A stretch of DNA of 52,200 bases from Armatimonadota bacterium (GTDB lineage Bacteria > Armatimonadota > Armatimonadia > Armatimonadales > Armatimonadaceae): NCBI GenBank assembly GCA_026392155.1, contig JAPLCP010000172.1, forward strand, positions 1 through 52,200, given 5' to 3'. Below the pieces are notes generated by a model. The model made no database searches and was not told the origin of the DNA. It worked only from the letters and a program-made list of their open reading frames with translations. The number at the start of each line of letters is the position of its first letter. The first letter of the stretch is position 1. The position numbers and the translations under genes were made by a program. Positions 7,918 to 10,910 of this stretch are shown in pieces.

Positions 7918-7961
7918 ATTTCTTTCGAATGGCTCTGCTTCTCTGTTGGGGGAGCTTCTAT

Positions 7962-7969
7962 GGTACGAT
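7962..7969 (+). promoter_or_regulatory. Extended -10 of the flgM riboswitch transcript
   Basis: GGTACGAT fits the extended -10 pattern seen at other genes of this window. A start about seven bases on (near 7976) would place the first nucleotide exactly at the 5' strand of riboswitch stem P1. No good -35 is seen. Confidence 0.45.
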
Positions 7970-7975
7970 AATGAT

Positions 7976-8071
7976 AGTGCAAAGGCAAAGCGCTCCGAAA
8001 GGGCGCGACGCAAAACCACGGGCCTGTGAACCCTCTCCAAGGGGTTTTTATGGTAGCCGGGTTGCCGCGCT
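7976..8071 (+). promoter_or_regulatory. Cyclic di-GMP-I (GEMM) riboswitch in front of flgM
   Basis: The conserved GEMM-I core is present in order: AAAGGCAAAG (7981-7990), a stem capped by a GAAA tetraloop (GCGCTC...GAAA...GGGCGC, 7989-8006), GACGCAAAACCACGGGCCT (8007-8025), a variable hairpin (AACCC...GGGTT) and ATGGTAGCCGGGTTGCCG (8050-8067). P1 can form between AGTGC (7976-7980) and GCGCT (8067-8071). The last ten bases, TTGCCGCGCT (8062-8071), can also pair with AGCGAGGCAA (8091-8100), which contains the GAGG ribosome-binding site of flgM, with one mismatch. Ligand binding should hold P1 and free the ribosome-binding site, so this is predicted to be a translational ON switch. Confidence 0.88.
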
Positions 8072-8102
8072 CAGGATTTCTAGATCAAAAAGCGAGGCAA
8101 AG

Positions 8103-8366
8103 ATGAGAATCTCTAACGAGGAGCTACGGCATATTGCCGTGCAAGGTTATGGCGAAGATGTTGTTTCCACGGGGGCGAATGTGATTCTGGCACTAGAATC
8201 TCCGGACATGCAGACGATTAATGCGGCACTCTCGGAAGTCCCTGACACCCGTGAGCAGCTTATCGCCAGCTTAAAAGAGCGCATTGAGTCGGGCACCTAC
8301 CAGGTGACCGGCGATCAGATCGCCGAGATGATGGTTCGTCGTTCACTTGCCGATCGTATGCGCTAG
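8103..8366 (+). CDS. flgM: FlgM-like anti-sigma-28 factor
   Basis: An 87-residue protein whose C-terminal half (REQLIASLKERIESGTY, then QVTGDQIAEMMVRRSL) matches the sigma-binding region of FlgM, the factor that holds the flagellar sigma-28 (FliA) inactive until the hook-basal body is complete. The N-terminal half is poorly conserved, as in the family. The ATG at 8103 follows GAGG with good spacing and lies 31 bases after the end of a c-di-GMP-I riboswitch; the frame is open further upstream but that part is the riboswitch. The logic fits: high c-di-GMP would raise FlgM and shut down late flagellar genes. No other flagellar gene is in the window. Confidence 0.85.
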   Translation: MRISNEELRHIAVQGYGEDVVSTGANVILALESPDMQTINAALSEVPDTREQLIASLKERIESGTYQVTGDQIAEMMVRRSLADRMR

Positions 8367-8373
8367 CTTTTTT

Positions 8374-8389
8374 TGTTTCACGTGAAACA
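8374..8389. other. parS: parS site 1 (perfect)
   Basis: TGTTTCACGTGAAACA, the exact 16-bp consensus bound by ParB, lies between flgM and parA, 57 bases before the parA start codon. Confidence 0.95.
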
Positions 8390-10196: not shown

Positions 10197-10910
10197 TTGT
10201 TTCACGTGAAACAAATTCAATTAGAAGCCTCCCTCAGTGCTGAGGGAGTAACGGTGGGAAGTGCCCTCACAGCGGTCACGCTAAAGCTTCCCGCAGGGCA
10301 GCTCACGGGGATCATCGGCCCCAATGGCTCCGGCAAGACCACGCTCCTGCGCTGCCTTGTGGGAGAACGCAAGCCTGACTCTGGTAGAATCTGCCTCGGG
10401 AAAGAGGCCCTAGAGAACCTAAAACCTCAACTGAAGGCCCAGCTCCTGACCTATCTACCGCAAACCACCCCCATTTCCTTTGCTTTCACCCTGAAAGAGC
10501 TGGCAGGGCTCCAGGCAAGATCAGCCGACACTCTTGCCGCGGCTCTTGAGGCAATGGAGCTAGAGAGCCTGGCGGATCGCTCTCTTCTTACTCTCTCAGG
10601 GGGAGAGCGCCAGCGTGGTGCCATTGCGCGTGTGCTCGCTCAGGCCACACCCCTGCTACTCCTAGACGAGCCCCTCGCCCACCTTGACCTGCGCTACCAG
10701 AAGCGCTTACTGGGGTTTCTCGTGAAACACTGCCAGGCAGGAGGCAGCGTCGCGCTGGCTCTTCATGAGCTACGTCTGGCGCAAAACTGGTGCGACTCTC
10801 TTGTGCTCTTGCACCAGGGGAAGCTCGTTGCAGAAGGAACACCTACCGAGGTTCTGACTCCGGATAGACTTGAAAACGTCTTTGGTGTCGAAGCAGGTTT
10901 TGCCTATTAA
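10197..10910 (+). CDS. ABC transporter ATP-binding protein, FecE/BtuD type
   Basis: A 237-residue ABC ATPase with all motifs: Walker A GPNGSGKTT, signature LSGGERQR, Walker B LLLLDEPLAHLD and the switch histidine in ALHEL. Overall it is closest to ATPases of iron-siderophore, heme and cobalamin importers, but no permease or binding protein is nearby, so the partner is unknown. The likely TTG start at 10197 overlaps a parS site, so the first residues (MFHVKQ) are the in-frame reading of parS; a GTG at 10206 is an alternative. There is no visible Shine-Dalgarno sequence and it begins one base after the parB stop, pointing to co-transcription. Confidence 0.88.
   Translation: MFHVKQIQLEASLSAEGVTVGSALTAVTLKLPAGQLTGIIGPNGSGKTTLLRCLVGERKPDSGRICLGKEALENLKPQLKAQLLTYLPQTTPISFAFTLKELAGLQARSADTLAAALEAMELESLADRSLLTLSGGERQRGAIARVLAQATPLLLLDEPLAHLDLRYQKRLLGFLVKHCQAGGSVALALHELRLAQNWCDSLVLLHQGKLVAEGTPTEVLTPDRLENVFGVEAGFAY
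10198..10213. other. parS: parS site 2 (perfect), overlapping a start codon
   Basis: TGTTTCACGTGAAACA lies three bases after the parB stop and covers the first codons of the ABC ATPase gene. Confidence 0.95.
10714..10729. other. Degenerate parS inside the ABC ATPase gene
   Basis: GGTTTCTCGTGAAACA matches the parS consensus at 14 of 16 positions (mismatches at 1 and 7). It lies within coding sequence 0.5 kb from parS site 2 and may be a weak ParB site or chance. Confidence 0.35.

Follow-up and report, generated by a model that had tools for sequence, protein, structure and literature searches.

Motility is known to be halted by c-di-GMP at a variety of steps, in most cases by way of protein effectors. 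The window analysed here, a 52.2-kb stretch of DNA from an Armatimonadota bacterium, raises the question of whether an RNA could do the same by acting on an anti-sigma factor, as it carries a predicted c-di-GMP riboswitch just upstream of flgM. A preliminary description of this DNA had read the element as a translational ON switch through which c-di-GMP raises FlgM and turns off late flagellar genes. We asked what the aptamer would sense, how it could reach the flgM ribosome-binding site, what would transcribe the message and which sigma factor its product would hold.

The aptamer and its target gene

A search with Rfam model RF01051, as the preliminary description had proposed, identified a c-di-GMP-I (GEMM-I) riboswitch aptamer at 7974-8069 on the forward strand, scoring 63.6 bits (gathering threshold 35, E 3.3e-10) over the full length of the model (1-87 of 87). 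This is the sole Rfam match in the window, and repeating the search locally gave the same result. The core is complete and lies, as had been described, 31 bases before flgM, the 3' strand of P1 ending at 8071 and the ATG starting at 8103. The gene (8103-8366, forward strand) encodes a protein of 87 residues that matches the anti-sigma-28 factor FlgM in Pfam (PF04316, 50.2 bits, cut-off 25) and scores below the cut-off of the NCBIfam equivalog TIGR03824 (34.8 vs 40.75 bits); by these sequence matches its membership of the FlgM family is safe, while its status as a strict equivalog is not. Binding and inhibition of sigma-28 by this protein are predicted from the family. The gene sits in a chromosome-partition region, where two perfect parS-like palindromes TGTTTCACGTGAAACA occur at 8374-8389 and 10198-10213 with none expected by chance, one between flgM and parA and the other where the gene following parB begins.

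The arrangement is widespread in the phylum. FlgM matches were found in 215 and c-di-GMP-I matches in 173 of 291 genomes and, among the matches listed, at least 57 genomes have a riboswitch that shares the orientation of the FlgM domain and precedes it by 129-263 nt. A direct scan of 40 further flgM leaders, which accepted E values up to 0.01 and included several hits below the Rfam gathering score, revealed the riboswitch in 29 more; two riboswitches counted as controls also precede FlgM-like ORFs (L183 and L205). With a riboswitch in front of flgM in no fewer than 86 genomes from about 18 families of Armatimonadota, much of the phylum has probably inherited this arrangement from a common ancestor. 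Where a genome has two FlgM genes and a linked copy, the window's own included, only one copy is linked among the matches listed. A leader scan detected no riboswitch before the unlinked copy of the window's genome (L032), nor do the leaders of FlgM genes from other phyla (L034-L036) carry one.

Concerning the ligand, a G at position 20 marks c-di-GMP binders and an A marks cGAMP binders (PMC6456294). The equivalent of Vc2 G20 in the window is G7984 (forward strand, position 11 of the RF01051 match), and G is present at this position in all 57 linked aptamers, so that the A of the cGAMP-binding GEMM-Ib type is absent throughout this set. The A47 equivalent is A8012 (forward strand), the first A of GACGCAAA in the RF01051 alignment, a position assigned from a comparison between the consensus sequences of two Rfam variants, GGC and UAU; the C92 equivalent is C8065, which pairs with the Shine-Dalgarno base G8097 in the alternative fold described below. 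By alignment, all three contact bases are therefore canonical. The GAAA tetraloop of P2 is present in the window (CCGAAAGG in the RF01051 alignment) and in 54 of the 57 linked aptamers. The tetraloop receptor of P3 reads CCUGUG...UAUGG against the canonical CCUAAG...UAUGG, and the deviating strand may weaken ligand binding; a canonical receptor does not seem to be required, because both strands are exact in only 8 of the 57 linked aptamers. This noncanonical strand speaks for a different ligand, for instance cGAMP, but the G at position 20, in the window and its relatives, and the canonical A47 and C92 equivalents make such a ligand very improbable. The altered-ligand variants RF03167 and RF03168, which score best in some relatives, were rejected as well: the aptamers inspected retain GCAAAG and GGC, and the scores are thus a preference of the models. 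The genome holds 19 GGDEF matches, so c-di-GMP is probably present in this organism, and we take it as the predicted ligand of the aptamer.

The same genome contains a second c-di-GMP-I riboswitch (L001 290-378, G000:C150, 75.1 bits), which precedes an ORF reading like a subtilisin-type protease and shares its contig with a GGDEF gene (C150:4149).

The alternative helix

P1 can form between its 5' strand AGUGC (7976-7980, forward strand) and 8067-8071, A7976-C7980 with G8067-U8071, giving a helix of only 5 bp that includes one G-U pair, a weak point of the proposed switch; when P1 partners were exchanged across families, the own partners were favoured, with swaps as good in 2.9%. The P1 3' strand is also part of the switching strand UUGCCGCGCU (8062-8071, forward strand), which includes C8065 and has two alternative partners, the P1 5' strand or the Shine-Dalgarno region. 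The Shine-Dalgarno sequence of flgM, GAGG at 8094-8097 (forward strand, 5 nt before the ATG), was placed by sequence and by an opening-cost calculation; it falls within AGCGAGGCAA (8091-8100, forward strand), the other strand of the alternative helix according to sequence reading and fold prediction. The pairing had been described earlier and its positions are correct: TTGCCGCGCT at 8062-8071 pairs with AGCGAGGCAA at 8091-8100 in 9 of 10 positions, the mismatch being G8067/A8095. The proposed mutual exclusion of the two structures was also borne out by prediction, as ligand binding and masking of the Shine-Dalgarno sequence exclude each other because the helix consumes C8065 and the entire P1 3' strand.

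The two strands pair with a duplex energy of -16.1 kcal/mol. Shuffling the first strand gives a mean of -8.8, with 0.6% of shuffles as good; for the bare 10-mers the same shuffle gives 2.8%. The unconstrained minimum-energy fold of 7974-8120 contains P2 and P3 of the aptamer and exactly the Shine-Dalgarno hairpin, with P1 absent. The folding energy of the whole leader is unexceptional against shuffles (z -1.58), and that of the hairpin region gives z -0.72. The predicted cost of opening the Shine-Dalgarno sequence is 4.88 kcal/mol in the whole leader and decreases to 0.60 once the aptamer and the switching strand are made unavailable for pairing, a treatment that mimics the ligand-bound state.

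A switch of opposite polarity or one acting on transcription, in which c-di-GMP would lower flgM through a terminator or an unrecognised pairing, has to be weighed here. Both polarities are known among c-di-GMP-I riboswitches: Cd1 is an OFF switch, and the pilM riboswitch of Geobacter metallireducens (GEMM-Ib) is an ON switch whose aptamer and alternative fold are mutually exclusive (PMC9262584). The terminator scan also reported a weak hairpin with a T run, located inside the aptamer at 8032-8044. However, the scan finds no terminator between the aptamer and flgM in the window, which removes a terminator platform from consideration; the masking helix takes the ligand-contact base C8065 and all of the P1 3' strand, and therefore ligand binding must free the Shine-Dalgarno sequence; and several families share the masking geometry while differing by compensatory changes, as described next. 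We thus regard an OFF or transcriptional switch as improbable. Prediction and covariation instead agree on what distinguishes a translational ON switch: the strand masking the Shine-Dalgarno sequence is one that the aptamer itself requires when ligand is bound.

Conservation of the helix among relatives

The aptamers of five families (f1, the nearest to the window, f9, f24, f28 and f5) carry (U/C)UGCC on their 3' side, complementary to a GGCA(A/G) that overlaps the 3' end of the Shine-Dalgarno sequence and extends beyond it. At the outermost pair of this core, 15 leaders have U-A and 11 have C-G, a two-sided change in which most C-G cases come from one family. The extension of the helix covaries too, being CGCU/AGCG in the window, CGCUU/AAGCG in its congener G001, UCCUC/GAGGA in G039 and UCUUUC/GAAAGG in G069. 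Own partners reach -15.6 kcal/mol vs -12.5 for partners swapped between families, and random swaps of family representatives are as good as own partners in 1.4% of trials. GGC(A/G) follows the Shine-Dalgarno sequence near the start codon in 37 of the 57 flgM leaders vs 9 of 59 other ORFs bearing such a sequence. Over the 57 leaders, withholding both the aptamer and the switching strand lowers the mean opening cost from 5.2 to 3.0 kcal/mol. With foreign aptamers the difference is small (5.2 vs 4.7 kcal/mol), as the swapped part does not include much of the switching strand. A helix arising by chance was rejected on the shuffles, swap tests and covariation, the swap tests being moderate (1-3%) and the bare 10-mers standing at 2.8%.

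The platform is different in f18, f7 and part of f36 (leaders L086-L101, L106, L114, L116 and L117). There, GUUUGCCUUUUU just after the aptamer complements the aptamer 5' strand AAAAAGGCAAAC, close to another hairpin that precedes the Shine-Dalgarno sequence. That this could be a second route to the same polarity is only an idea, because a crude test of accessibility gave no effect for f18 or f14, two families with differing platforms. In several f18 leaders, GUUUGCCUUUUU could double as a -35 box (TTGCCT-N17-TATGAT).

Probable promoter of the flgM transcript

The preliminary description had placed the transcript start at about 7976. This fits a predicted P1 that begins with A7976, but a scan for sigma-70 promoters gave no match. 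What had been overlooked is a conserved promoter of the sigma-28 type. At the equivalent site upstream of most linked aptamers, the relatives carry CTAAAG-N16-CCGATAAT; at least 12 of 14 motif positions are found in 47 of the 57 flgM-linked riboswitches vs 3 of 41 other riboswitches, and on inspection two of these three are also linked to flgM. The enteric sigma-28 consensus is TAAAGTTT-N11-GCCGATAA, which we take CTAAAG-N16-CCGATAAT to match. The same motif occurs before flagellin genes in four relatives (L234, L239, L252 and L255) and, by sequence reading, before ORFs resembling flagellar rod/hook proteins and CheW (L232, L233 and L242). Because the motif precedes both the linked riboswitches and flagellin genes, the mRNA carrying riboswitch and flgM is probably a sigma-28 transcript in this phylum.

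Compared with the pattern CTAAAG-N15-17-CCGATAAT upstream of the transcript, the window has only a remnant, CTGTTG-N16-ACGATAAT at 7943-7972 (forward strand), with 10 of 14 consensus positions and the conserved spacing; the -10 octamer ACGATAAT keeps 7 of 8 positions and the eroded -35 hexamer 3 of 6. In the congener G001 the -35 is CTGCTC, so that erosion is common to both members of the genus.

The motif was also observed elsewhere. A c-di-GMP-I riboswitch in another genome (L175, G230:C5:8747-8836) has a perfect 14/14 match and no FlgM in front. Both congeners hold a perfect motif (L229 1501-1529, G000:C129:41598-41626; G001:C4:459599-459627) that is directed, in antisense orientation, into the 3' part of a gene resembling pilC/gspF, a possible promoter for an antisense RNA. 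A further perfect motif lies 65-73 nt before a glycosyltransferase-like gene in two genomes (L243, G023:C26:36747; L244, G228:C2:41509), the first of which is without flhA, and sigma-28 may have non-flagellar targets in the phylum.

Sigma-28 factors and a possible flagellar role in this organism

The window's genome (G000) carries two FliA/WhiG sigma factors above the family cut-off, on contigs C102 and C84; genomes with two FlgM and two FliA genes together are several (G000, G037, G038, G050 and G228). The C102 factor is an intact stand-alone gene, and in the tree its protein groups with the sigma-28 of other riboswitch-flgM genomes (100/99 support). The C84 factor falls outside this clade on long branches and is encoded inside a flagellar cluster together with flagellin, flhA and its own FlgM, which has no riboswitch. 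Because of this grouping, and because C84 has a FlgM of its own, the window FlgM most likely partners the ancestral stand-alone C102 factor.

These observations affect the final step of the earlier proposal. The sensor, the FlgM target and the exclusive anti-Shine-Dalgarno helix stand, as does the ON polarity, by which c-di-GMP raises FlgM and which is predicted and well supported by the phylum-wide comparison. A shut-off of late flagellar genes by the switch is best taken only as a possibility in this organism, because the -35 is eroded and the C84 cluster has its own sigma-28 and FlgM. The window copy could even be a relic, a sensor and a FlgM kept by descent in a genus where they no longer regulate flagella, the ancestral system being gone and the C84 cluster supplying its own pair. 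Apart from that pair and the erosion of the -35 in both genus members, this is consistent with the C84 flagellin promoter, where the ancestral motif was not seen, and with G001, the only other genome of the genus, where flhA is absent at 98% completeness and the sigma-28 gene (L262, G001:C4, about 220318-220989) has an internal in-frame TAA, suggesting possible decay of the ancestral flagellar system in that genome. However, comparing G000 with G001 shows conservation of the leader (aptamer, switching strand and Shine-Dalgarno-side strand) and of FlgM in its C-terminal half, set against divergence of the intervening linker, and the stand-alone C102 sigma-28 is intact in G000. On balance we consider a relic unlikely, though less so than an OFF switch.

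Discussion

We consider it likely that the c-di-GMP-I riboswitch of the window is a translational ON switch for FlgM. The aptamer, FlgM, the exclusive pairings with their conservation and the promoter motif of the relatives are read from the sequence; from them we infer ligand binding, polarity in the cell, the cognate sigma factor and the regulon in this organism. At low c-di-GMP, UUGCCGCGCU would fold onto AGCGAGGCAA and mask the Shine-Dalgarno sequence of flgM, so that little FlgM would be made and sigma-28 would be free. At high c-di-GMP, C8065 would enter the ligand pocket and 8067-8071 would pair with 7976-7980; closing P1 in this manner would leave the ribosome-binding site free, FlgM would be made and sigma-28 would be held.

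For the phylum as a whole, we give somewhat better than an even chance to an ancestral coincidence gate, in which sigma-28 would transcribe the mRNA of its own inhibitor and c-di-GMP, through the riboswitch, would decide on its translation. This gate would have been kept despite platform changes between families, from the helix between the P1 3' strand and the Shine-Dalgarno region in most of them to GUUUGCCUUUUU with its neighbouring hairpin in f18, f7 and some members of f36. Among relatives that have flagella and a single sigma-28, high c-di-GMP would stop the late flagellar genes.

A single RNA element that switches on the inhibitor of the motility sigma factor would thereby make the level of the free factor depend directly on c-di-GMP. 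A circuit in which the sigma factor makes the message and the second messenger permits its translation predicts a sharp and fast shut-off, and conservation over about 18 families of a little-studied phylum points to an element that is old and important to the cells.

In the open papers searched, we came across no riboswitch upstream of flgM and no study of riboswitches from Armatimonadota. The aptamer class and ON switches built on exclusive folds are known; in the present case the known sensor would gate an anti-sigma factor in the sigma-28 feedback loop. In relation to other RF01051 riboswitches, the window shares the aptamer fold, the conserved core, the GAAA tetraloop and the contact bases G, A and C, and differs in that its target is an anti-sigma factor, its platform is an anti-Shine-Dalgarno hairpin made from the P1 3' strand and its tetraloop receptor is noncanonical. 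The pilM riboswitch is likewise an ON switch with a mutually exclusive aptamer and alternative fold, but it binds cGAMP and uses a transcription terminator, whereas the window would respond to c-di-GMP and act on translation.

Cd1 is the riboswitch of the flgB operon of Clostridioides difficile and acts on flagellar genes. It has in common with the window the aptamer class and the physiological direction, as high c-di-GMP lowers motility; Cd1 shuts off transcription of a flagellar operon, while the window would turn on the inhibitor FlgM by translation. In enterics, transcription of flgM by sigma-28 is a known feedback. The window shares with this system the Pfam FlgM domain and, as predicted for the phylum, a flgM made by sigma-28; unlike the enteric loop, it inserts a second-messenger riboswitch between the transcription of flgM and its translation.
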